Shown here: in pieces, positions 1 through 57,328 of the stretch
Layout: each line of letters starts with the position of its first letter
How positions within the stretch are numbered: the stretch's first letter is position 1
Origin: an uncultured Bacteroides sp.
GTDB taxonomy: Bacteria; Bacteroidota; Bacteroidia; Bacteroidales; Bacteroidaceae
Direction of reading: 5' to 3'
DNA: 64,000 bases
Assembly: GCA_944322345.1 (NCBI GenBank)
Contig: CALUOO010000005.1
Coordinates: forward strand, 114,156 to 178,155
Translations under genes and position numbers: made by a program
Notes under the pieces: model-generated
Databases searched by the model: none
What the model was told of the DNA's origin: nothing
The model's input: only the letters and a program-made list of their open reading frames with translations

Positions 1-527
1 AAAATAATACAATTACCGATGTGTTACAAGAATATGAAATACATTCCGGGGATGTTTTCTTTTTGCCGGCAGGGCGTGTTCATAGCATAGGAGCTGGGGC
101 TTTTATTGCAGAAATACAACAAACATCAAATATTACTTATCGAATTTACGATTTTAATAGAAAAGATGCAAATGGTAAAACGCGCGAACTGCATACAGAT
201 CTGGCTCGTGAAGCTATAGATTATGAAGTTTTGGATGATTATCGTACTAAGTATGAGTCTGTAAAGAATGAGCCTGTCGAATTGGTTGCATGCCCATATT
301 TTACAACCTCTTTGTATGATATGACTGAAGAAATTAGTTGTGATTATTCAGAACTAGATTCTTTTGTTATATTTATTTGTATGGAAGGTGGCTGTGAAAT
401 GGTAGATGATGAGGGTAATAAATTATCGTTGAATGCCGGTGAAACTGTATTGTTCCCAGCTACAGTTCAAAATGTTACAATAACCCCGATAAGTGGTAAG
501 GTTAAACTTCTGGAAACTTATGTGTAG
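1..527 (+). CDS. manA: Mannose-6-phosphate isomerase, class I (3' part only)
   Basis: The reading frame is already open at the left edge (codons from position 3), so the N-terminal half lies outside the window. The visible part reads ITDVLQEYEIHSGDVFFLPAGRVHSIGAG, the second half of the cupin metal site in class I phosphomannose isomerases (H in GRVHSIG), followed by the usual EIQQTSNITYRIYDF stretch. The enzyme is cytoplasmic and interconverts mannose-6-phosphate and fructose-6-phosphate, feeding GDP-mannose and GDP-fucose synthesis. The C-terminal beta domain is complete, ending at a TAG followed by a hairpin. The family assignment is secure; the true start cannot be seen. Confidence 0.9.
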   Translation, partial: NNTITDVLQEYEIHSGDVFFLPAGRVHSIGAGAFIAEIQQTSNITYRIYDFNRKDANGKTRELHTDLAREAIDYEVLDDYRTKYESVKNEPVELVACPYFTTSLYDMTEEISCDYSELDSFVIFICMEGGCEMVDDEGNKLSLNAGETVLFPATVQNVTITPISGKVKLLETYV

Positions 528-558
528 TCTCTTTGGGAGGATATAATTGATACGAATA

Positions 559-39740: not shown

Positions 39741-41195
39741 CTATAAGCCGACAGGGAGTCTTAGTGAGAGCCAAATAATAAATAGAAGTATCCAAATAGT
39801 CAAGATAATTAAGGAATATTTCCATGTATATTTTAGCAAGAATATATAGGTTATATTTTTATCATATTGACGCATATATGTTAGAACTAAAGGCATATAA
39901 AATAAAAAAGGGGTAATAGCATTTGTCGAACTATCTCCGATGCGAAAGGCACACTGTACTATATCTGGTTCTATCCCTTGTTCATAAAATATAGGAATAA
40001 AAATATATGATATAATTGCCCATTTTGAAGTAGCAGATACCATTATTAAATTAATAATAGAAATTAAAAGGATGAAAACAATGAGATTCATAAATGGATC
40101 ATTAATCGTAAATGAGTAAGCCTTAGAAGTTATGACAAGTAAATATTTGTCAAGAGAGGAGTATTCAAAACAAGCAAACATTTGAGCTGCAAAAAAAACA
40201 ATCACAAAGTATTCTCCTAGCGATCTTGTTAAGTTCATTATTCCAACAACGATATCGCCATCGGATCTATATTTTCCTGAAACAATTCCGTATATTAATC
40301 CTGATATTCCAATTCCTAAAGATATTATAAATAAAATACCGGCGATAAAGGGAGAATGCATTAGGCCTCCATTGACTCCTCTTAAAATACCATATGGGGA
40401 AAAAGTTAGCCATAAAATAAAAGTCATATAAATGGCAAAAGAGGTAATGGCATAAATTAGCGCTCGGCGTTCTTTTCGTGATAAAGAACGATGCTCTTCT
40501 ACTAATACTTCATTTTGGGATTTACTTAATGCAGGGATTAATATGTAGACAGTTATCCAATAAATAACAAATGCAATAACTATAGTAGAAATTGCCATAA
40601 AAAAATAATTGCACAAGGGCTCTGTATTTCCTTGATATCCGATTGTTTCTAATGCTGCTTCTTGAGTTATGTGAGCTAGCAATGGATCCATTGTACTTAA
40701 TACAATATTTGCACTATATCCACAAGCAACTGAAATATAGGATGTTATGATTCCTGTGATGGGAGGAAGCCCTACTTGTTTAAATAATATGGCAGCAATA
40801 GGTAATAGAATAATATATCCACCGTCTCCTATTGCATTTGATAATAATCCTAAAGCAATGATCCATCCAATGACTTTTTGTTTCTTTTGAAGTCCTCCAA
40901 CTTTTAAGCGTATACAAGCTTTAACAAAACCAGAATGTAAGGCTATACCAACTCCAAACATTGCAATAATTGCCATACCTAATGGAGCAAATTCTGTAAA
41001 ATTATTAATTACATTGCGTAACCACCAACGGATTCCTTCTGAACTTAATAAACTTTGTACACGAATATTCTCTCCTGTTGAGGGAATGTTGACTGATAGC
41101 CCATAAATATCACATATCCATGAAACCAAAATAATGATTAGGGTCAATATGATAAACAACGTAGCTGGGTGGTAACTTTTCCATTTATTCTTCAT
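39741..41195 (-). CDS. AbgT family transporter
   Basis: A 484-aa multi-pass membrane protein of the AbgT (p-aminobenzoyl-glutamate / MtrF) family. Diagnostic stretches are NNFTEFAPLGMAIIAMFGVGIALHSGFVKACIR, NAIGDGGYIILLPIAAILFKQVGLPPITGI, the re-entrant-like SVACGYSANIVLSTMDPLLAHITQEAA and the C-terminal QCAFRIGDSSTNAITPFLFYMPLV. E. coli AbgT imports p-aminobenzoyl-glutamate, and Alcanivorax/Neisseria homologues export sulfonamides; the substrate here is unknown. The first 11 bp overlap the end of the response-regulator gene, so it is translated with it and is the likely output or cargo of that signalling system. Confidence 0.88.
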   Translation of the reverse strand: MKNKWKSYHPATLFIILTLIIILVSWICDIYGLSVNIPSTGENIRVQSLLSSEGIRWWLRNVINNFTEFAPLGMAIIAMFGVGIALHSGFVKACIRLKVGGLQKKQKVIGWIIALGLLSNAIGDGGYIILLPIAAILFKQVGLPPITGIITSYISVACGYSANIVLSTMDPLLAHITQEAALETIGYQGNTEPLCNYFFMAISTIVIAFVIYWITVYILIPALSKSQNEVLVEEHRSLSRKERRALIYAITSFAIYMTFILWLTFSPYGILRGVNGGLMHSPFIAGILFIISLGIGISGLIYGIVSGKYRSDGDIVVGIMNLTRSLGEYFVIVFFAAQMFACFEYSSLDKYLLVITSKAYSFTINDPFMNLIVFILLISIINLIMVSATSKWAIISYIFIPIFYEQGIEPDIVQCAFRIGDSSTNAITPFLFYMPLVLTYMRQYDKNITYIFLLKYTWKYSLIILTIWILLFIIWLSLRLPVGL

Positions 41196-41913
41196 CTGCT
41201 TCTAATTTATCGACATCAAGAATGCGAAGTTCTAATGCACGAACTACTAATCTGGTTGCATTGACTCCTATTCGCTCATTACTTGCAAATAATCGTCCAA
41301 TAAGATCATTCTGACGTTTTTCCAATGATTTCACACCAAAAGGCATTCCTTTTAAATTAGCAATCATCTCTTTTGTATATCCCAGTGCTAAATGACGTAG
41401 AAATCGTTCATCATATTCATCAATATCATACCCAATTATAGCTTCCTGACGTTTTATGTCATTTAATACAGTCGCTTTAAAGCGTTCAACAATCTTTTCA
41501 AGAATTGGATAATTAAAAACAAGTTTCTTGCCATCCATAACTGCTTGTACGTCTGTTTTGGTCAATAATTCTCCTGTCTTTAAGATTATTCCGTCTGCAC
41601 CTGCATTCAATACATCTACCCATAGTTTCTCGTTCAATACCTCACCTGTAAAAATTAATACATGGACCCCTTCATATTGTTTCGATATATTTCGGCAAAT
41701 TTCTACTCCTATGGTTGTTGAACCTCCTAACCCCAAATCTAAAAGGACTAAATCGGGTAGATCTATTTTCATTAATTCCCAAAATTCTTTCTCTGTCATA
41801 GCAGTACCTATAATTTCTGCATTCGGAATTTCATGACGGAAAATTTCCTCAGTTCCTTTTAATTCCAATTTTACATCTTCAACAATAATAACTTTAAATT
41901 TCTGTTTTTCCAT
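41185..41913 (-). CDS. Response regulator with LuxR-like C-terminal domain
   Basis: A 242-aa two-component regulator. The receiver domain (about 5-125) has the acidic pair E12-D13, phospho-acceptor D59 in LPDLVLLDLGLGG, the Thr in LIFTGE and Lys in GIILKTGE. The C-terminal region (about 165-235; DERFLRHLALGYTKEMIANLKGMPFGVKSLEKRQNDLIGRLF) resembles a LuxR/GerE helix-turn-helix with a slightly longer turn. It lies 19 bp after the sensor kinase and overlaps the transporter gene, so the three are one operon and partner specificity is likely. Confidence 0.85.
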   Translation of the reverse strand: MEKQKFKVIIVEDVKLELKGTEEIFRHEIPNAEIIGTAMTEKEFWELMKIDLPDLVLLDLGLGGSTTIGVEICRNISKQYEGVHVLIFTGEVLNEKLWVDVLNAGADGIILKTGELLTKTDVQAVMDGKKLVFNYPILEKIVERFKATVLNDIKRQEAIIGYDIDEYDERFLRHLALGYTKEMIANLKGMPFGVKSLEKRQNDLIGRLFASNERIGVNATRLVVRALELRILDVDKLEADEE

Positions 41914-41932: not shown

Positions 41933-44900
41933 TTATTTGCATGGAAGAGTAAAATATATAACATATCCTCCGTCTATAACTTTTTCTGCATTTATACGGC
42001 ATCCACGTCTGCCTGCAAATTCATCATGATCCCGAATAATTTGTTTACATAATAAATATTCAGTTCCATGTAATTGCCCATTTTCTCCTATTGTCATATG
42101 GCTTAAATTAGGAGAAAATAGGTTATTTAACTCTTCCTGGTTTCTTTCTCTACGTGTATCAATAAATAGAATACGGATTATATCATGTTCTTTAAAGGCT
42201 TTTAAGTGCAATGTTCCAGATTTATCACATGTTAGTGCTTCATCTATCAAATTCTCAAATAGAAAATTAAGTTGATTTATGTCACCAATTATTTTTTCTT
42301 CTATTGATTCTATTATAAATTTAATTTTTTTATTTTGTTTACTCTTTTTTCTAAAATATTTCTCAGCTGTATCAAAAAGGTTTTTTATAGGGATAAAAGT
42401 TCTCCTGAAGGTTATTTCTTCTAATTGCCTAGAAGCACAAGAACTAAGTATGGAAAAGATTCCTTTATAATATTCTATGAGCTCCAATATTGTATTCATC
42501 GCTTCTAGTTCTTCTTCTCTCGATAAATGTTGTACACTTAAATTGGTGATAATTTGTTTAATCTTATTGGGATAATAAACTGTTTCATGTTTAATCGTAG
42601 AAAGGCAATTATCAAGTACCATATTCTGTACATGTAGCATACCGTCTTCCCATGATGCACGATACGTATCTTCGTTTGCAGATTCAATATCACGAAACTT
42701 GGTAAGTAGTTTAACTATTACATTAAATACTACAATTGCTACATATCGAGCTATTAATTCAAATAGTAATAAATCTGTTTCTTGTTCTGTACCCTCACGT
42801 TGCTCTAGGTATAATGTTCCTACACAAAACTGTTTACCGTGCGTCTCAATAAATAAGGGAATAGCACGGAAGTTGTTAGAGAAAAAAGGCGTTTCAGAAT
42901 CAAAACTTTGTTGTACAATTATAGGCATTTTCTTGCCTGATTTAGAAGCGTATTCTAAACGATTGTTGACTTCGTTGTAAACGGCAATTCCCATATCTTG
43001 TATTGCAAATAATTCGTTAACAGATAAGAAGGATTCGTTTATAATTCGTTGTAATGTATCATTTACAATGTCTTTTTCATTCCGAATGACTTCTTCCTTT
43101 TCGAAAAGATGAAGTGTGGAAGCCATAAATACTTTTTTATTAATTTCAAGAACTTGCTCCAAATTTAATCGGTTTTGTAATCGCTTTCTTATATATAAGA
43201 AATAATAGCAGATTAGTGAAATTATTAATAGCAAGATGCATAAAATAATTCCGATTGTTTTGTTGATATTTGAACGTTCTAATTGTCGGCAATATTCTTC
43301 TAATGTATCATCTTCACCTAGCAATTTGTATAAATTAGTAAAAGCTAGATTGTTATAATCATATGCTTTCAGTTCTTTTAAAGCAAGAAAAGCCACTGCT
43401 GCTTCATTTCTTATATCTAAGATTACGTGATAATCAGATTCAAAAGCTTCATTCCACCATTGAATCTCTGCTGGCATATCATTATCTATTAATTTCATTA
43501 AGTGATTAGAAGTGGCAGGAAATGTATACTTCTTATAATGTTCATTTAATAAGATCATCGCCGAATCTATATATTCTAGTGCCATTGCATATTGACCGTC
43601 CACGTTAGAAAAATAAGCTTCATTAGCAAAATCTGCAGCCTTATTTAATAACTCATTATATATAGTATCTGAATTAAAATCATTTTGTATAGTAGACGGC
43701 ATTGAAGAGAATGTATCAGAACAAGACGCAACAGTAATAGAAAATAAAAATCCAATTATTATATTCAATATTTTTCGTACTCCTAATGGTAAACGAAAGA
43801 AAAAACGACTTCCTACACCTATTTTACTTTCAATGCCAAACGTACATACTTGGAATAAGTCATTGGTTTTCCTATATTTTTCTATGATACCTTTGCAGTT
43901 CATTAGTCCAAATCCACTTCCTTTGTTCTTCATTAAGTATTCAGGATCTTTAGCATCTTTTATTCCAATAATTTTTGAATCATATACTTTTTCACCGATG
44001 ATGCGGGTTATATCTTCTTCAGAAAGTCCTCTTCCAGTGTCTTCAATAGAGATTTCTACATATTGAGAAGTTAATGTTGCATAGATTTTAATCATTCCTC
44101 CGTTTGGGGTATACTTACGTGCATTCTCTGCTAAAGTATTAATCATGAATAAGGTCAATGCACGATCTGCTTTAACTAATGCAGAAGTAGGCTCAATTAT
44201 TAATGTTTGTTCCCGCATTTCAAAGGCTTTCTTCCCTTTTTTTACCAAATTAAATAAATCATTTAATGGAAAAATTTCAAGTGCAAGATTTAAACTTCCT
44301 TGCTTCATTTTAATCCATAGAGTGAGTATGTCGTTATAATCATTGATGGTTGTAACAAGTTCATTTATATACTGTAATTTCTCCTTTTTTATTATCTCAT
44401 TTTCTATATATTTTTTATCTATTAATTTATGAACTTCATTTAGAATGCGATCAATATACGGATTAATTCCATTAACAATGGCTAGACATGCTTTTTTCTC
44501 CAAATTCTCTCTCTTATTTTTAGCTATGTGTTGTTCATAAATAAAACGTCTTTTTTCTAATTGAACCCGTTCATCATTTAATTCTTCCATGATGTGTTCA
44601 TTATCAGTGGCCCAATCAACATAAGGTTCTAATACATGTATCCACGCTTTTTCATCTCTATTTAAATGGCATAAAGGGAATAACTTTGTGTCCGTTGCTG
44701 TTGGAGTTTTCAATACAACTTTTCCTTTCCCAAATAAACGATCAATACCTTGTTGTATTAAAGTTATATTCATAGGTATTGAGGAGGTAATATCTCGGCA
44801 AAGTGCTAAAAGTTGTTGCAAGTTCTCTAGATCTATTTGATATTTGATTTTTGATCGTTTGCTCAGAAAACACCAAAAAATTGTGACAAGTACTAATCCT

Positions 44901-46294
44901 GCAATAACCAATACAAGAATTATAGTAGTCTGTTTAGAATCAGCTTCTAATGATAAATAGCGCCCTTCCAATTCTTTGTCTTGACGTGTGTAATTTAATA
45001 TATCTAGATATGCGTTTCTATTATAGTTTGAAGCATACATCAGTCCAAGTCCTGCGTAGGATACACTCAATTGTTCACGGATCTGTGCAATCCATTCTGG
45101 AACAGTTCTTACTTTTTCTTTAATCATCCAGGGAATTCCCGTATAAGTTGTATCATTCTCTACATACGGAAGTAATTTGTCAATTGTATCAGTTGCACTA
45201 TGATATCGCTGTATATGGTGTTTATTTACACAGTCTAAAGCTTTTAATAATGTATCTAATGCTTCTTGATAACGACCATGTGCATTCAAATATTTACCTA
45301 TAGTAACATATGACCCTACTATTTGATATAAGTCATCGTAACGATGGAAGTATCTCAGTGCTTTTTGAGATAGTCGAAGAGGTAATAAGGAATCTACTGG
45401 CAGAGCAAATTTTTCTAAAGAATGTTTTCTTTGTGTGTAAAAAAAAATAAAATCGTCATGATAGCACATCATATTAGCGATTCCTAGCATTCCACTTCCT
45501 TTAAAAAAAGGAAAATTATGTTGGGAGGACAACTTCCAAACTGTATATAATTCATCAAAGGTGTTTAATTCCCTTTCTTCTGGGGTATCTCCTTCTACTA
45601 AAGAAGTTGTGCCTTTAAGATAATGATAATGAATTAATTGGTTGATGTCTTTGGCTAAATCCTCCGCCGGTATTTTATCTAGAGAAGTTCTCGCGTCTTT
45701 TTTTTGCTGGAAATTATAATAGTAAGTAGCAGAAATCATAAAGAATTCTGAAAAGGCATAGCGGAGACGAAGGGTTTCATGACGATCTATGAAAAGATCA
45801 CGATCCTCTAGGATACGTTTCATCCGGTGAAGAGCACTATTACGATAATCATAATAATCTTTGCTCATTGCAGTTCTTTGATAAATCTTCATCAATCCAA
45901 TATCTGCAATCAATAATTCTAACTCATTTAGTGTTGTTTTGTAAACCTCTTTATAATATTCTTCAGATTTTTCATAATCCATCCACATAAATAGACAAAA
46001 GCTCAGGTTATTGAAAGCTTCTGCTTTCCCCGATTTATATAGTTTAACATGTCGCAGAGCTAGATTTGCATATTGAAAAGATGAATCAAGATTTCGGTAG
46101 CGATAGTCATAGGCCTTTCTATTTAAAGAATCTACAAGACGTATTTCTTTAGTAGGGACGATGTCACTACATGAAAAGCAACAAAGCAATAACATAATTA
46201 ATATGGGGAAAAGAATTTTCTTTTGAATATTAGCTTGCCTTGTTATATTTGCTATTATATCTATACTATTTTTGTTCATATTGGCTCGATACAC
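41933..46294 (-). CDS. Double sensor histidine-kinase-like protein
   Basis: A 1453-aa two-in-one sensor. First half: lipobox-like CFSC (Cys42), helical TPR-like periplasmic domain (about 50-445), TM (about 455-477), and an ATPase with intact boxes (NTLAENARKYTPNGG near 725, EDTGRGLSEED near 751, GSGFGLMNCKG near 793) but no His at the H-box position (ACLAIVNGINPYIDR). Second half: a new signal-like segment (843-858, VASC at Cys858), a shorter helical domain, TM (about 1011-1036), a GAF-like domain (about 1080-1195, VGTLYLEQREGTEQETDLL), an H-box-like TIKHETVYYPNKI (H1236), and an ATPase lacking the second Asn and the DxGxG box. The architecture matches the large DUF5112/DUF5113-type Bacteroides proteins as I remember them. 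The start may be the ATG at 46279 (MNKNSID). Confidence 0.8.
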   Translation of the reverse strand: MYRANMNKNSIDIIANITRQANIQKKILFPILIMLLLCCFSCSDIVPTKEIRLVDSLNRKAYDYRYRNLDSSFQYANLALRHVKLYKSGKAEAFNNLSFCLFMWMDYEKSEEYYKEVYKTTLNELELLIADIGLMKIYQRTAMSKDYYDYRNSALHRMKRILEDRDLFIDRHETLRLRYAFSEFFMISATYYYNFQQKKDARTSLDKIPAEDLAKDINQLIHYHYLKGTTSLVEGDTPEERELNTFDELYTVWKLSSQHNFPFFKGSGMLGIANMMCYHDDFIFFYTQRKHSLEKFALPVDSLLPLRLSQKALRYFHRYDDLYQIVGSYVTIGKYLNAHGRYQEALDTLLKALDCVNKHHIQRYHSATDTIDKLLPYVENDTTYTGIPWMIKEKVRTVPEWIAQIREQLSVSYAGLGLMYASNYNRNAYLDILNYTRQDKELEGRYLSLEADSKQTTIILVLVIAGLVLVTIFWCFLSKRSKIKYQIDLENLQQLLALCRDITSSIPMNITLIQQGIDRLFGKGKVVLKTPTATDTKLFPLCHLNRDEKAWIHVLEPYVDWATDNEHIMEELNDERVQLEKRRFIYEQHIAKNKRENLEKKACLAIVNGINPYIDRILNEVHKLIDKKYIENEIIKKEKLQYINELVTTINDYNDILTLWIKMKQGSLNLALEIFPLNDLFNLVKKGKKAFEMREQTLIIEPTSALVKADRALTLFMINTLAENARKYTPNGGMIKIYATLTSQYVEISIEDTGRGLSEEDITRIIGEKVYDSKIIGIKDAKDPEYLMKNKGSGFGLMNCKGIIEKYRKTNDLFQVCTFGIESKIGVGSRFFFRLPLGVRKILNIIIGFLFSITVASCSDTFSSMPSTIQNDFNSDTIYNELLNKAADFANEAYFSNVDGQYAMALEYIDSAMILLNEHYKKYTFPATSNHLMKLIDNDMPAEIQWWNEAFESDYHVILDIRNEAAVAFLALKELKAYDYNNLAFTNLYKLLGEDDTLEEYCRQLERSNINKTIGIILCILLLIISLICYYFLYIRKRLQNRLNLEQVLEINKKVFMASTLHLFEKEEVIRNEKDIVNDTLQRIINESFLSVNELFAIQDMGIAVYNEVNNRLEYASKSGKKMPIIVQQSFDSETPFFSNNFRAIPLFIETHGKQFCVGTLYLEQREGTEQETDLLLFELIARYVAIVVFNVIVKLLTKFRDIESANEDTYRASWEDGMLHVQNMVLDNCLSTIKHETVYYPNKIKQIITNLSVQHLSREEELEAMNTILELIEYYKGIFSILSSCASRQLEEITFRRTFIPIKNLFDTAEKYFRKKSKQNKKIKFIIESIEEKIIGDINQLNFLFENLIDEALTCDKSGTLHLKAFKEHDIIRILFIDTRRERNQEELNNLFSPNLSHMTIGENGQLHGTEYLLCKQIIRDHDEFAGRRGCRINAEKVIDGGYVIYFTLPCK

Positions 46295-46479: not shown

Positions 46480-47418
46480 ATGAGCGAAAAAGCACCTTTT
46501 ATGGTATTCTCGGGGACAAACTCGAGATATCTTGCAGAAAAAATCTGCACAAGTCTAAATTGTCCATTAGGAAATATGAACATTACTCATTTTGCTGATG
46601 GTGAATTTGCAGTTTCTTATGAAGAATCTATTCGTGGGGCACATGTATTTTTGGTTCAGTCTACTTTTCCAAACTCAGACAATCTGATGGAATTACTCCT
46701 AATGATTGATGCAGCCAAACGTGCATCTGCCAAAAGTATTGTAGCAGTAATTCCTTATTTTGGATGGGCTCGTCAAGATAGAAAGGATAAACCAAGAGTC
46801 TCTATCGGAGCAAAATTAGTAGCAGATTTGCTTTCTGTTGCTGGTATTGACCGATTGATTACTATGGACTTGCATGCAGACCAGATCCAAGGTTTCTTTA
46901 ATATCCCAGTAGATCATTTATATGCTTCAGCAGTATTTCTTCCTTATATTCAATCTTTAAATTTGGAAGAACTTGTTATTGCCACTCCTGATGTTGGTGG
47001 ATCTAAACGAGCTAGCACTTTTTCAAAATATTTAGGAGTTCCTTTGGTTCTTTGCAATAAATCTCGCGAAAAAGCTAATGAAGTAGCTTCAATGCAAATT
47101 ATTGGTGATGTGAAGGGAAAAAATGTTGTTCTTGTTGATGACATTGTCGATACGGCTGGTACTATCACTAAAGCTGCTAATATTATGCTAGAAGCGGGGG
47201 CTAAATCTGTGCGTGCTATTGCTAGTCACTGTGTAATGTCAGATCCTGCCTCTTTCCGTATACAAGAATCTGGATTGACAGAGATGGTATTTACAGATAG
47301 TATCCCATATTCTAAGAAATGTGATAAGGTAAAACAGCTAAGTATTGCTGAGATGTTTGCTGAAACAATCAAGCGAGTAGTCAATAATGAATCTATTAGT
47401 TCGCAATATATTATTTAA
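46480..47418 (+). CDS. prs: Ribose-phosphate pyrophosphokinase
   Basis: A 312-aa PRPP synthetase joining ribose-5-phosphate and ATP for nucleotide, His and Trp synthesis. Conserved blocks: FSGTNSRYLAEKICTSLNCPLG, DGEFAVSYEESIRGAHVFLVQST, the flexible-loop PYFGWARQDRKDKPR, MDLHADQIQGFF and the PRPP-binding loop VLVDDIVDTAGT. Length is normal. It is transcribed alone and ends in a strong terminator. Confidence 0.95.
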   Translation: MSEKAPFMVFSGTNSRYLAEKICTSLNCPLGNMNITHFADGEFAVSYEESIRGAHVFLVQSTFPNSDNLMELLLMIDAAKRASAKSIVAVIPYFGWARQDRKDKPRVSIGAKLVADLLSVAGIDRLITMDLHADQIQGFFNIPVDHLYASAVFLPYIQSLNLEELVIATPDVGGSKRASTFSKYLGVPLVLCNKSREKANEVASMQIIGDVKGKNVVLVDDIVDTAGTITKAANIMLEAGAKSVRAIASHCVMSDPASFRIQESGLTEMVFTDSIPYSKKCDKVKQLSIAEMFAETIKRVVNNESISSQYII

Positions 47419-47688: not shown

Positions 47689-49764
47689 TTATTGTACTAT
47701 GATTTCGTCTGTAAATATCCAGCCTCTATGTTGTTTTGTTGCACATGCTTGATAACGTATATAACGTGCGGAAGCACTTCCTTTCCATTTTATTGTTTTT
47801 AGACGAATCGGTTGTTGTAAATCAACTTCATAGTCTTTTCTCATTAGTTCTGTAAAAATGTTTCCATCAGATGAAATGGAAATAACAACAGATGCTGGTA
47901 AGTAAATTTCAGCCCCAGTGACTTGCATAAAGTCAGCTGTAATAGTTTGTATATTCATTTCTGTTTCCATGTCAATGGTTATGTCTAAACGTTTTGGAGA
48001 GATAAATCCTTGCCATGCACCATCTGTATATGTCCAATCACCGCGTATACCATCAGTTAAAGTAATATCGCCTTTTGCTGGATAAGCGTTATGATAAGGC
48101 GCATGATAAATTACTTTTTTGTCTAATGCTAAGTGGCTTATTGGATGAGTCGCTTCAGGACGGCTTCCAATTTCCTTTTTAAGATCAAAAGGATGATACC
48201 CTCTTGATTTTAAATTGTCTACAGCTTGTAAAGCACGCTGATAAAAATCATTCCATGATTTGCGTTCTGGTTGAGACCATGCTACTTCTGCTAATGCTAA
48301 TAAACGAGGATATATCATATATTCTACATGGCTGGGCTCTGAAACATATTCTGTCCATAAATTTGCTTGTACACCTCTTATTAGGTTAGCTTGTTTAGCT
48401 GATAAAGAATCAGGTATGGGATTATAATCATAAACTTTTTTTAACGGTAAATATCCGCCAATTGCTTCTGGCTGTGTATGAGGTGCATCTTGATAGGCGT
48501 CAAAATAACAGTATTTCCCAGGTGTCATAATCGCTTGGTGTCCTGATTGTACAGCTGAAATTCCCCCTTGTTCGCCACGCCACGACATCACAGTTGCGTT
48601 GGGCGCGAGACCTCCTTGTAAAATCTCATCCCATCCTAATAATTTACGACCATGGGCATTTAAGAATAGTTCAATTCTGTGAATTAGATAGCTTTGTAAC
48701 TCATCGACATTGGTAAGTTGTTCTTCTTTCATGCGTCGTAAACATTTTGGGCATTCTTTCCATGCAGCTTTTCCTGCTTCGTCACCACCAATATGAATAT
48801 ATTCAGAGGGGAATAATTCCATTATTTCGGTCAATACTCCTTCTAAAAACTCAAAAGTTTCCTCATTGCCAATGCAAAAATCTGCATTTTTATATGGTTC
48901 TCCAACACATGATAATTGAGGATATGCTGCTAATACTTCTTCCGAATGAGCAGGCATTTCTATTTCGGGAATTACGGTAATATAATGCTCTCGTGCATAA
49001 TCGACAATTTCTCGAATATCATCTTGAGTATAATATCCTCCAGCAGCTTTAGGATCATTAAAATAAAGATATTTACGATCTCCATTCCACCACTTTTTCC
49101 ACTTGCCCTCAGTGCGCCATGCTGCGAAATCAGTCAATAAAGGATATTTTTTTATTTCAACTCTCCAACCTGCTGCATCTGTCAAATGAAGATGCAAACG
49201 ATTAATTTTATAGAATGCTAATGCATCTATTTGTTTTTTTACAAATTCTTTTGAAAAAAAATGTCGGGAAACATCAAGCATAAACCCACGATAAGCAAAA
49301 CGTGGTTCATCTTCTATTTCAGTAGATGCTATTGAAAATCCATTAGCCAATGGTTGTGCTAATTGGCAAAGTGTTTGTATACCATAGAAAAGGCCAGCTC
49401 CTGAAGTCGCTTGTATTAAAACTGTTTGAGGAGTGACAGAAAGAGTATATCTTTCTGGAGATATTTTATGCTTTTTATTATTTTTGGTTACTGATAAAAT
49501 AATTGTATTTTTTGTATCACGTTTCTTGCCTTTTTGCATCCTAAAGAAATATTGCTCTAAGCAATTTCTAAGGATACATTCTTCTTCTCCTTTCAAATCT
49601 ATATAAAGTTTTGTTTTTTCTGATAACATAAATGCTCCATCGTTTTGCTTTATTTTAGCTGGAACTGGTATAATATTTTGAATATTAAGAGGATATGCGT
49701 TTACGCATATCCCCCAAAAATATAAGAAAAAACAAAATAGAATATTTTTATTTTTTATATTCAT
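47689..49764 (-). CDS. GH20 beta-N-acetylhexosaminidase (with discoidin-like domain)
   Basis: A 691-aa exported exo-enzyme that removes terminal GlcNAc or GalNAc by substrate-assisted catalysis. Signal peptide (FCFFLYFWGICVNA), GH20b domain (about 25-150), catalytic barrel (about 150-500) with the Asp-Glu pair D328-E329 in IHIGGDEAGKAAW and FMLDVSRHFF at its start, then a C-terminal F5/8 type C (CBM32-like) domain (about 570-691). It is the last gene of the sialidase / mannosidase / hexosaminidase run, 9 bp from the preceding GH20 gene. There is no lipobox, unlike its neighbour, so the two may act in different places. Confidence 0.92.
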   Translation of the reverse strand: MNIKNKNILFCFFLYFWGICVNAYPLNIQNIIPVPAKIKQNDGAFMLSEKTKLYIDLKGEEECILRNCLEQYFFRMQKGKKRDTKNTIILSVTKNNKKHKISPERYTLSVTPQTVLIQATSGAGLFYGIQTLCQLAQPLANGFSIASTEIEDEPRFAYRGFMLDVSRHFFSKEFVKKQIDALAFYKINRLHLHLTDAAGWRVEIKKYPLLTDFAAWRTEGKWKKWWNGDRKYLYFNDPKAAGGYYTQDDIREIVDYAREHYITVIPEIEMPAHSEEVLAAYPQLSCVGEPYKNADFCIGNEETFEFLEGVLTEIMELFPSEYIHIGGDEAGKAAWKECPKCLRRMKEEQLTNVDELQSYLIHRIELFLNAHGRKLLGWDEILQGGLAPNATVMSWRGEQGGISAVQSGHQAIMTPGKYCYFDAYQDAPHTQPEAIGGYLPLKKVYDYNPIPDSLSAKQANLIRGVQANLWTEYVSEPSHVEYMIYPRLLALAEVAWSQPERKSWNDFYQRALQAVDNLKSRGYHPFDLKKEIGSRPEATHPISHLALDKKVIYHAPYHNAYPAKGDITLTDGIRGDWTYTDGAWQGFISPKRLDITIDMETEMNIQTITADFMQVTGAEIYLPASVVISISSDGNIFTELMRKDYEVDLQQPIRLKTIKWKGSASARYIRYQACATKQHRGWIFTDEIIVQ

Positions 49765-49773
49765 TTGCTATAG

Positions 49774-52098
49774 TCAATCTATTGTTATTTCATCAACAAA
49801 TAAAAAACCAGGATTTCCTTTTCCATTATGCCAATCTGGAATTTGATCTTCAGATAATGCTATTATTCTTACATAACGGGCTATAACAGATTTAAAAGTC
49901 AATTTATGATTGTATATGCCGTTTCTATCAGTTTCTTTCATTACAGGATAATCTTCAGATGCTACTTTAGTAAAATTTTTTCCATCTTCTGATACTTCTA
50001 CTGAAAGCCCTTTTGTATCAAATATCCAATCTCCTTTCTCTACGCATGTAGAAATTGCCACATTAGATATTTCTATCGGTTGTTTTAAATCAATAGTTAC
50101 ATCCATATCATTTTTATAGAAAGCAATCCAGCGTCCAGTTTTATAATTACGATTTCCTTTTAAACCATCGATCAATGTAGTAATACCTTTGTACATATAT
50201 TGTTGGTTTACAGGTTGGTTTGCTACTATTGGTTTCATACTTGATTTGCTAAAACTGATTTTCTCTGTAACAGTTTGGCTATTGCCTGTAGGACGAATTG
50301 CCAATGCGGTTAAAGTTGCATTCTCTTTTATTTTTAATAATCCTTCATATATTGATGAGGAGGCTGTTGGTTCACTACCGTCTAGTGTATAATAAATCGT
50401 TGCATTATCAATGGTAGACAATGTAACATCAAGTGTCCCTTCTGTTGTGTTTGGCGTGAAATCTGTGGTTACATCAAAAACATGTTTTGCATAATTATAC
50501 CCTTCTGCGTCATACCATCGAATTAATTGAGGAAGGCGAGTAAGAAAGTCTTTGTAATTTTTCTTTTCTGGCATGGTCCATTGAACTTCGCACAAAGCAG
50601 CCCAGCGAGGCAGTACCATGTACTGGGCATGAGAGAATGTTGGAATATATTCTGTCCATAGATTTCCTTGTACTCCAATAATGTGCTTTTGTTCATCAGT
50701 TGTAAGTGAGGAGGGCATTGGTTCATAACTATATACTCTCTCAATTGGAAGAAATCCACCAATAGCCAAGGGCTCATTTTCTGTATCTTTACTCTGATAA
50801 TAGTCTAAGTATAAATATGTATTAGGAGTCATAATAACATCATGTCTTTGCTTGGCTGCTTCAATGCCGCCAGATTCACCACGCCAAGACATTACAGTTG
50901 CATTGGGGGCTAGTCCACCTTCTAAAATTTCATCCCATCCGATAATCTGCCGTCCATGTTCGTTTAGGAACTTTTCAGCATGATTGATAATAAAACTTTG
51001 TAAACGTTCTTCTTTTGTATGTTTGTTGTCAGATTGTAATTTCAATTCTTTGATTCGGGCTTGACATTTGGGACATTTTTCCCATTGCGTTTTTGGACAT
51101 TCATCACCTCCTACATGAATGTATTCAGAAGGGAAGATATCCATGATTTCTGTTAGTACATCATCAATGAATTGTAATGTTTTGTCGTTACCAGCACATA
51201 ATACATTGTCGGATACTCCCCATTGTCTCCAAACTTCATATGGGCCTCCGGTACATCCCAATTCTGGATAAGCAGCAAGAGCAGCCTGCATATGTCCAGG
51301 CAAATCTATTTCTGGAATAACGGTTATGTAACGTTCTGCTGCATATTCAACAATTTCTTTTGCTTGTTCTTGGGTGTAAAAACCTCCATATGGTTTTCCA
51401 TCATATTTACCAGAATTACGCCCAATTACAGTTTCTGTTCTTTTGGATCCTACTTCAGTTAATTTAGGATATTTCTTAATTTCAATACGCCATCCTTGAT
51501 CTTCTGTGAGGTGCCAATGTAAACGATTCATATTATGTAAAGCCATCATATCAATATAGGTTTTCATTTCATCTATAGTGAAAAAATGACGGCCTACATC
51601 AAAATGTGCTCCGCGATATCCAAAACGAGGGTAATCATTTATTTCTACTGCTGGTAATGAGATATCAGTTCCTATTGAAATCGGTAATGATTTACGTAAA
51701 GATTGAATTCCATAGAATATTCCTGCTTCAGTAGGAGCAGTAATAGTAATATTTTTATCTGAAATTTTTATGCGATAAGACTCTTGATTTTTTGTATCAA
51801 GTCCTAATGATAATATGATAGCATTTTCTCCTTCTTTACCTTCTTCAATAGCTAATTCTTTTCCTATTGCAGTCTTAAAATATTCTACTAAAAATTCAGC
51901 ATTACGCTTCATTTTTTCATTCCCTTCTGGATAAAGTATTTTTACTCTTGAATTTAGGATAAAAGGGTCCCCTTGTTCAGTCACAATTTCTTGTGGTAAA
52001 GGAATAATTTGATAATTTGCTTCTTGCTGTATTGACTGACAAGAAGCAAAAAGCCCAACAATAGCTGCGCATTTAACTGTATTAAAAAAGCATTTCAT
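49774..52098 (-). CDS. GH20 beta-N-acetylhexosaminidase lipoprotein
   Basis: A 774-aa lipoprotein (lipobox LFASC, Cys20). GH20b domain (about 30-150), barrel (about 155-520) with D332-E333 in IHVGGDECPKTQW, then a chitobiase-type/FN3-like domain (about 555-625, TIYYTLDGSEPTASSSIYEG) and a C-terminal F5/8 type C domain (about 640-774). It is paralogous to the next gene downstream but has the additional chitobiase-like domain. It is part of a contiguous glycan-degrading operon on the minus strand, 35 bp after the mannosidase gene. Confidence 0.92.
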   Translation of the reverse strand: MKCFFNTVKCAAIVGLFASCQSIQQEANYQIIPLPQEIVTEQGDPFILNSRVKILYPEGNEKMKRNAEFLVEYFKTAIGKELAIEEGKEGENAIILSLGLDTKNQESYRIKISDKNITITAPTEAGIFYGIQSLRKSLPISIGTDISLPAVEINDYPRFGYRGAHFDVGRHFFTIDEMKTYIDMMALHNMNRLHWHLTEDQGWRIEIKKYPKLTEVGSKRTETVIGRNSGKYDGKPYGGFYTQEQAKEIVEYAAERYITVIPEIDLPGHMQAALAAYPELGCTGGPYEVWRQWGVSDNVLCAGNDKTLQFIDDVLTEIMDIFPSEYIHVGGDECPKTQWEKCPKCQARIKELKLQSDNKHTKEERLQSFIINHAEKFLNEHGRQIIGWDEILEGGLAPNATVMSWRGESGGIEAAKQRHDVIMTPNTYLYLDYYQSKDTENEPLAIGGFLPIERVYSYEPMPSSLTTDEQKHIIGVQGNLWTEYIPTFSHAQYMVLPRWAALCEVQWTMPEKKNYKDFLTRLPQLIRWYDAEGYNYAKHVFDVTTDFTPNTTEGTLDVTLSTIDNATIYYTLDGSEPTASSSIYEGLLKIKENATLTALAIRPTGNSQTVTEKISFSKSSMKPIVANQPVNQQYMYKGITTLIDGLKGNRNYKTGRWIAFYKNDMDVTIDLKQPIEISNVAISTCVEKGDWIFDTKGLSVEVSEDGKNFTKVASEDYPVMKETDRNGIYNHKLTFKSVIARYVRIIALSEDQIPDWHNGKGNPGFLFVDEITID

Positions 52099-56726: not shown

Positions 56727-57075
56727 CTTCTTACTTTATTTTTTACATAATAGTATAATCTTCTCTTTTCTTTATTCTGATTTCTTTGTTTAGGCTAATC
56801 AAATTAGATTGTAAGTAATTTGATGCCTTTAGGTGGTTAGATATTGTGTTCTTATGTGGAATATTGTTGTTGGATAGTATGTTTATGATATGTTGTGGAA
56901 ACGTGTAGATATATTATGTTTACTTTATAAAACTTTTTCTAATAAAAGAATATTCTCTTGTTTTAGGGGGTAAAATGTACCGTATAATATAATTTCATGT
57001 TTCTTTAAATGAAAATGCTATATAGAAATCATGAAATTTTATTTATAAATGTCGTTGAAGTTAAGTTTTACAAAG
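56727..57075. other. Gene-free interval between tRNA-Thr and the tRNA-Lys cluster
   Basis: 349 bp, very AT-rich. I see no coding frame, hairpin or promoter worth calling. Confidence 0.5.
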
Positions 57076-57148
57076 TACACCCTCAGGGATTCGAACCCTG
57101 GACCCACTGATTAAGAGTCAGTTGCTCTACCAACTGAGCTAAGAGTGC
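57076..57148 (-). tRNA. tRNA-Lys (anticodon CTT), copy 3 in transcription order
   Basis: The minus strand reads acceptor GCACTCT, D arm GCTCAGTTGGTAGAGC, anticodon stem ACTGA/TCAGT around CTCTTAA (CTT), T arm CAGGGTTCGAATCCCTG. It is the last of three identical genes. Confidence 0.95.
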
Positions 57149-57165
57149 GTTAATTGTAGAAAAAG

Positions 57166-57238
57166 TACACCCTCAGGGATTCGAACCCTGGACCCACTGA
57201 TTAAGAGTCAGTTGCTCTACCAACTGAGCTAAGAGTGC
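57166..57238 (-). tRNA. tRNA-Lys (anticodon CTT), copy 2
   Basis: Identical in sequence to the flanking copies, as are the 17-nt spacers on both sides. Confidence 0.95.
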
Positions 57239-57255
57239 GTTAATTGTAGAAAAAG

Positions 57256-57328
57256 TACACCCTCAGGGATTCGAACCCTGGACCCACTGATTAAGAGTCA
57301 GTTGCTCTACCAACTGAGCTAAGAGTGC
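57256..57328 (-). tRNA. tRNA-Lys (anticodon CTT), copy 1
   Basis: First in transcription order, immediately behind a consensus promoter; identical to the two copies that follow. Confidence 0.95.

Follow-up and report, generated by a model that had tools for sequence, protein, structure and literature searches.

How can a sensor kinase operate when neither of its two transmitter units is complete? Histidine kinases are normally symmetric homodimers, which makes it hard to learn from them if one active site would suffice and in which direction phosphotransfer matters. The question is posed by a protein of 1453 amino acids encoded in a 64,000-nucleotide stretch of DNA from an uncultured Bacteroides sp. 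(contig CALUOO010000005.1, positions 114,156 to 178,155), hereafter referred to as the window and numbered from its first letter. The open reading frame (ORF; 41933-46294, minus strand, as are all domains described below) begins with a GTG codon; its start is approximate since the true one may lie slightly downstream. We regard it as likely that this protein is a subfunctionalised single-chain histidine kinase, which was duplicated and fused, suffered complementary losses in its two halves, and serves the DUF5932-type response regulator encoded by the adjacent gene.

Our homologue set combined 40 sequences from genomes of the window's family with 80 named loci, among them loci of the common gut bacteria Bacteroides fragilis and Phocaeicola vulgatus. 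Six named loci without a full-length frame (L135, L141, L144, L151, L164, and L174) and seven duplicates of the first set were removed, and 108 distinct full-length proteins, the window's included, were retained; counts out of 108 refer to this set. A full-length fused frame was present in 74 of the 80 named loci, with a contig end cutting three of the remaining six, and among the matches listed in family genomes the frames comprise at least 1000 amino acids in every case but one (G066, 652 amino acids).

The first dimerization and histidine phosphotransfer domain of the window kinase (DHp1; residues 590-690, 44225-44527, delimited by the alignment and by predicted helices) carries the H-box CLAIVNGINPYIDRI, which contains no histidine. 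The catalytic and ATP-binding domain that follows it (CA1; residues 700-840, 43775-44197) has intact boxes (N719/N724, D752-G754-G756, and G794-F-G796). N724, D752, G754, G756, G794, and G796 are all present in 108/108 proteins and N719 in 107. Residue 608, the position that aligns with the histidine of an intact single-unit relative described below, is asparagine in 38 and threonine in 35 homologues, with other residues elsewhere; it is not histidine in 105/108. Residue 611 is histidine in 16/108, a variable position adjoining a proline, and residue 615 in only one. Since position 608 is rarely histidine and positions 611 and 615 are variable or rarely so, the first half has no conserved acceptor. 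The initial annotation, made from the one sequence, had described good ATP-binding boxes and a missing H-box histidine in this half, and the family bears this out; a conserved histidine there, named beforehand as evidence against the idea, was looked for in the 108 homologues and was not found.

The second half shows the complementary pattern. Its DHp domain (DHp2; residues 1208-1295, 42410-42673, from the 108-sequence alignment) contains KHETVYYP with the proposed phospho-acceptor H1236 (codon 42587-42589), and K1235, H1236, E1237, Y1241, and P1242 are each invariant in 108/108. The adjoining catalytic domain (CA2; residues 1300-1453, 41936-42397) is degenerate, with ENLIDEAL and DTRRER as the window's versions of its boxes. 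None of the 108 proteins has the second N-box asparagine, the DxGxG motif, or the GxG motif there, and the first asparagine (N1348) persists in 81. The description of this half as an H-box-like HETVYYP joined to an ATPase without its second asparagine and DxGxG box was thus upheld. Pfam HATPase_c matches the whole kinase with 73.6 bits, best over residues 717-837, and the second-half core alone reaches 26.3 bits at a cut-off of 26.4. The protein has the Bergerat fold of histidine kinase CA domains, and no transmitter unit within it combines an acceptor histidine with working ATPase boxes, as a canonical homodimeric histidine kinase does. The complementary pattern is a fixed family trait, far beyond chance. 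Frameshifts or runs of N occur in a few draft relatives and might suggest that the motif losses stem from a sequencing error or a decayed gene in a single case; none was found for the window's gene, and the 108 distinct, open, full-length homologues sharing the pattern refute this idea, to which we give practically no weight.

The next gene downstream of the kinase (41185-41913, minus strand) encodes a response regulator with a receiver domain and DUF5932, both recognised by Pfam, and with the phospho-acceptor D59. A DUF5932 regulator gene is present in 116/120 fetched loci (seven of these loci repeat another's kinase sequence), and D59 is kept in 116/116 aligned regulators, those of the window and 115 loci. 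At L058 and L060 (genomes G134 and G072, of one genus), the regulator lies on another contig and not beside the kinase; L128 and L133, where no regulator was found at the locus, are short or cut. In the sampled genomes of the family, the DUF5113 kinase occurs in 120/151 and the DUF5932 regulator in 121/151, namely the same genomes plus G100, and each is represented in 25/30 genera. No Response_reg match was found inside the kinase (E up to 1); the receiver is encoded by the next gene, so the protein is not a hybrid kinase.

These data bear on the proposal that H1236 is no phospho-acceptor and that the protein instead serves as a scaffold of pseudo-kinase type or dephosphorylates the regulator. 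Its H-box is indeed unusual, HETxYYP being without the threonine or asparagine at the usual phosphatase position, and Pfam HisKA matched neither the whole kinase (E up to 1) nor either core (E up to 10), in searches in which the HMMER filters discard most weak matches. A KHE motif that is invariant in 108/108 proteins within a predicted DHp helix and a partner that always keeps D59 make this proposal very improbable.

How did the two halves arise? Their profiles align over 492 columns (hhalign probability 99.9, E 2.5e-31), and the sensor regions of both halves align separately (probability 98.8, E 8.8e-17). This comparison, which had been put forward as a check, establishes that the halves are homologous; mere resemblance is ruled out by the 492-column alignment. 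A genome from another family of the same order (G250) encodes a single-unit kinase of 710 amino acids (L197:5730-7862) with CLSIFRHDMSPYI and intact ATP boxes, and in G433, of the same genus, the kinase is 94% identical to it. The gene that begins within the 3′ end of the G250 kinase gene encodes a DUF5932-like regulator (DUF5932, 26.2 bits, passing the cut-off of 23.7; receiver, 21.3 bits, under the cut-off of 30.2), which aligns with the window's regulator (E 2.1e-9). Half 1 aligns with this relative over 634 columns, nearly its full length (E 7.9e-31), and places the relative's histidine on residue 608; half 2 aligns with it through the CA domain (E 6e-15). The single-unit kinases are hence full-length homologues of half 1 that differ from the window protein in having one unit with both the histidine and the ATP boxes intact. 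As the halves are homologous and an intact single-unit relative stands beside a similar regulator, the two-half protein probably goes back to one intact kinase by way of duplication, fusion, and complementary loss.

The second transmembrane segment (TM2; residues 841-865, 43700-43774), a signal-peptide-like stretch at the junction of the halves, fits this history. A lipobox-like pattern occurs there in 64/108 proteins vs. 94/108 at the true N-terminus, judged by the same loose pattern, as is expected of a segment that began as the signal peptide of a duplicated gene. In a tree of 95 kinase cores (25 from each half of the 108 proteins, two single-unit kinases, and 43 other kinases), half 1, half 2, and the single-unit kinases each kept to one side of a branch; because the long branches of half 2 and of the single-unit kinases meet and the bootstrap values are unsettled, we did not use it for branching order.

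In two genomes the halves occur as separate genes. In genome G831, locus L164 holds the second half alone (591 amino acids), adjoining the regulator and a transporter-like ORF of reduced length, and the first half is a separate gene of 737 amino acids on another contig, beside prs. Genome G850 likewise has a first half of 720 amino acids beside prs, followed by a 389-amino-acid gene resembling the one that follows half 1 in G831, and a second half of 600 amino acids on another contig that adjoins the regulator; the regions upstream of half 2 differ between the two genomes. In both, the half-1 proteins lack the histidine and keep the ATP boxes, and the half-2 proteins keep KHETVYYP with a degenerate CA2. 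The similar surroundings of half 1 in two genomes argue against misassembly, with the caveat that G831 is labelled a metagenome-assembled genome and that the two contigs of G850 measure only 9.7 and 9.2 kb. In G884 (L235:2461-6764), the frame is broken at the half junction on one contig, giving overlapping ORFs of 892 and 594 amino acids, which may be a draft error or a real fission.

Sequence comparison thus shows the homology of the halves, their complementary losses, the steady regulator partner, the intact relative, and the split genes. On this footing we propose the following course of events. The ancestor would have been a one-unit kinase (lipoprotein signal, sensor, transmembrane segment, DHp with its histidine, and CA) encoded beside a DUF5932 regulator. 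Tandem duplication of the kinase gene and fusion of the copies would have followed, in a sequence of events that is a matter of inference. The first copy would then have lost the acceptor histidine and kept its ATPase, and the second kept the histidine and lost the ATPase. DHp1 and DHp2 would pack as an intrachain pseudo-dimer, across whose bundle CA1 would phosphorylate H1236, in one direction only; phospho-H1236 would pass its phosphate to D59 of the adjacent regulator. CA2 would no longer bind ATP and would persist as a nucleotide-free structural or regulatory domain; it may be an allosteric pseudo-kinase, which is compatible with this scheme. Signals of the two periplasmic domains would converge on one kinase core. 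The halves very probably must work together, and the earlier suggestion that the first ATPase serves H1236 is favoured by the complementary conservation in 108/108 proteins, by the intact single-unit relative, and by split genes that keep their respective motifs, so that H1236 is its putative target. For the full picture, a natural single-chain kinase heterodimer with one ATPase, one histidine, one direction of phosphotransfer, two periplasmic inputs, and a fossil regulatory ATPase, its gene re-split in some lineages, we have moderate confidence.

Structure prediction, also suggested at the outset, was carried out with AlphaFold2 (AF2) for residues 480-1453 (mean predicted local distance difference test score [pLDDT] 83.1, predicted template modelling score [pTM] 0.59), and structural matching assigned the kinase ATPase fold to both CA1 and CA2. 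Ten of the 50 PDB matches listed start in DHp1 (model residues 103-121) and finish where CA2 does (971-974), as judged from the first and last aligned residues only. The clearest is CckA (5idj), which extends from model residue 112 to 974 with 219/242 residues and a root-mean-square deviation (rmsd) of 3.0; an alignment of this length fits the DHp1 helices plus CA2 and thus hints at cross-half packing as an intrachain pseudo-dimer.

Not all observations point this way, and those that weigh against our reading are the following. Histidine does occur at residue 608 in 3/108 homologues (L039, L047, and L062), where it is followed by asparagine or serine and has no acidic neighbour, and which may represent chance or partial reversion. 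The full-length single-unit kinase was seen in one genus only (G250 and G433; 2/295 order genomes); with the G250 kinase as query, 15/295 order genomes gave matches at E up to 1e-20, 13 of them in the kinase core only. A second AF2 model, of the homologue L066, which has no GAF-like domain (699 amino acids, pLDDT 89.0, pTM 0.63; one of the 108 rows, which contained X, was omitted from its alignment), gave only one spanning match among the 50 listed (6qrj, 25..529, rmsd 8.4), and CckA aligned to its half 1 alone (rmsd 9.7). Covariation between DHp1 and DHp2 was best, of 118 registers, in the homologous one (offset 626), at a value of 2.42 that lies below the mean of a near-neighbour-swap null (3.01), and covariation between CA1 and CA2 likewise peaks near its own homologous register. 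As the DHp1-DHp2 signal fails the null and the CA1-CA2 signal behaves similarly, we dropped covariation as evidence for a pseudo-dimer. Finally, an in-frame ATG, GTG, or TTG lies at the half junction in 104/108 homologues, so that translation might also start internally and yield a free second half.

Such start codons, and the separate half genes of two genomes, where the covalent link seems dispensable, speak for phosphotransfer in trans between chains: CA1 of one chain, whether full-length or a separate half, would phosphorylate H1236 of another, and fusion would merely equalise the amounts. The fused frame is the rule among the named loci, however, and the junction start codons sit in a leucine-rich stretch; in the window, residue 839 is encoded by GTA, which is no start. 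We therefore consider this arrangement possible but doubtful. Another scheme takes the first half, its histidine gone, to use its ATPase for regulation, as an ATP-binding allosteric gate, with H1236 being phosphorylated by some other kinase of the cell. The pseudo-histidine kinase DivL is a known case (PMC12189002), and its structure (4q20) ranks first among the structural matches of CA1 in the L066 model and was matched in the first model too. Against this stand the ATP boxes of CA1, every one of them kept in 108/108 homologues, and the retention of both halves even where the gene is split, so that we hold such a gate to be unlikely.

The preferred reading, an ATPase and an acceptor histidine shared out between the halves of one chain, calls to mind the known split kinases CheA3/CheA4, Hik36/Hik43, and FasB/FasC, all of which are separate proteins. 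Neither CheA3 nor CheA4 of Rhodobacter sphaeroides phosphorylates itself alone, and the CheA4 kinase domain phosphorylates the histidine domain of CheA3; these are, however, CheA-type chemotaxis kinases on separate proteins, in which whole domains are missing rather than degenerate (PMC3591291). Hik36/Hik43 of Synechocystis has been termed a split histidine kinase, with the histidine (HPt) domain on one protein and the ATPase on the other, but is of the CheA type, its genes separate and distant (PMC7656254). In group A Streptococcus, the kinase-like pair FasB/FasC heterodimerises and feeds one regulator; in its authors' model FasB provides the ATPase and FasC is a proposed pseudo-kinase with the acceptor H246, whereas the case differs from ours in comprising two proteins of another organism and in that its authors leave room for an acceptor histidine in FasB too (H284) (PMC12675982). 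By motif alignment, the ATPase and the acceptor histidine of the window family are segregated onto two modules, as a split histidine kinase requires; these modules lie on separate proteins only in G831 and G850, the window having one open frame. The window protein would work like a split kinase but, as its modules share one chain, is not classed as one.

The acceptor residue of Caulobacter DivL is altered. Like the halves discussed here, DivL has the kinase ATPase fold and is a histidine kinase relative that no longer functions as one (PMC12189002), but it is a separate protein acting on CckA and is not fused to a complementary half. The Escherichia coli CpxA homodimer is reported to phosphorylate in trans, to have asymmetric catalytic domains, and possibly to occur mainly in hemiphosphorylated form (PMC3904827), an asymmetry that the present family would fix in sequence. 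Of 15704 non-hybrid kinases in a genome survey of 2010, only two had a pair of transmitter domains (PMC3018481). Ordinary annotation may have missed the present system because each half falls short of a full transmitter. It is widespread in its family, yet we found no open-licence paper naming DUF5112, DUF5113, or DUF5932, and no single-chain complementary kinase among the open-literature matches listed; neither absence proves novelty. A text search of the accessible part of a paper on bile fitness (PMC10197588) found nothing on kinases. Evolution seems to have left one active site of each kind per chain, with the single-unit and split-gene relatives as natural controls.

The remaining domains belong to signal input. 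An N-terminal lipoprotein-like signal (residues about 26-42, 46169-46219), recognised from the sequence, precedes DUF5112 (residues 54-316, 45347-46135; presumed periplasmic, with weak TPR matches near it) and a first DUF5113 match (residues 319-480, 44855-45340, by profile search) that includes TM1 (about 455-478); the linker between the latter and DHp1 is poorly conserved. Beyond TM2 follow a second DUF5113 (residues 879-1036, 43187-43660; Pfam, presumed periplasmic) and TM3 (residues about 1040-1062, 43109-43177; sequence and AF2 helix). DUF5112 (PF17139, 273.7 bits vs. a cut-off of 29.4) and DUF5113 (PF17140, 323.3 vs. 27.1) both score well above threshold, Pfam DUF5113 matching in two stretches. 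The initial annotation had given each half its own transmembrane pair. This does not hold for the first half, which has the lipoprotein-like signal and a single transmembrane segment, and the second half begins with the signal-peptide-like TM2. Two periplasmic inputs into one molecule are plausible. As for the cytoplasmic GAF signal that the annotation also listed, the order of elements predicted by AF2 for residues about 1073-1169 (42788-43078) fits a GAF domain, but Pfam GAF stays under its cut-off (E 0.14, 13.1 bits vs. 22.4) and the region is replaced by fewer than 80 residues in 10/108 homologues, so that its identity is only suggested.

DUF5113 was found in 10/295 order genomes, four inside the family and six outside with weak matches (E 8.6e-5 to 9.3e-4), and in 6/395 phylum genomes, five of them in the family. 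In one of the six (G269), the ORF encodes a TPR-repeat protein and no kinase. A DHp2-CA2 profile matched 180/198 order genomes; among the matches listed, those inside the family score 331 to 353 bits, and none outside it exceeds 68 bits, most of the latter leaving about the first 38 model positions uncovered.

Downstream of the regulator, an AbgT-family transporter gene (39741-41195, minus strand; NCBIfam TIGR00819, 318.9 bits, under the model's cut-off) shares 11 bases with the end of the regulator gene and is possibly in the same operon; an AbgT match, often partial, occurs in 19/40 loci. On the start side of the kinase gene and divergent from it lies an ORF (46480-47418) that we take to be prs, encoding a ribose-phosphate pyrophosphokinase-like protein. 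A prs match was seen in 5/40 loci, and prs stays with half 1 in the split genomes G831 and G850. Two large neighbouring ORFs on the same strand (47689-52098) presumably encode proteins resembling beta-N-acetylhexosaminidases, to judge by sequence features. Three tRNA-Lys genes with identical anticodon (ctt) stand in tandem at 57075-57328.

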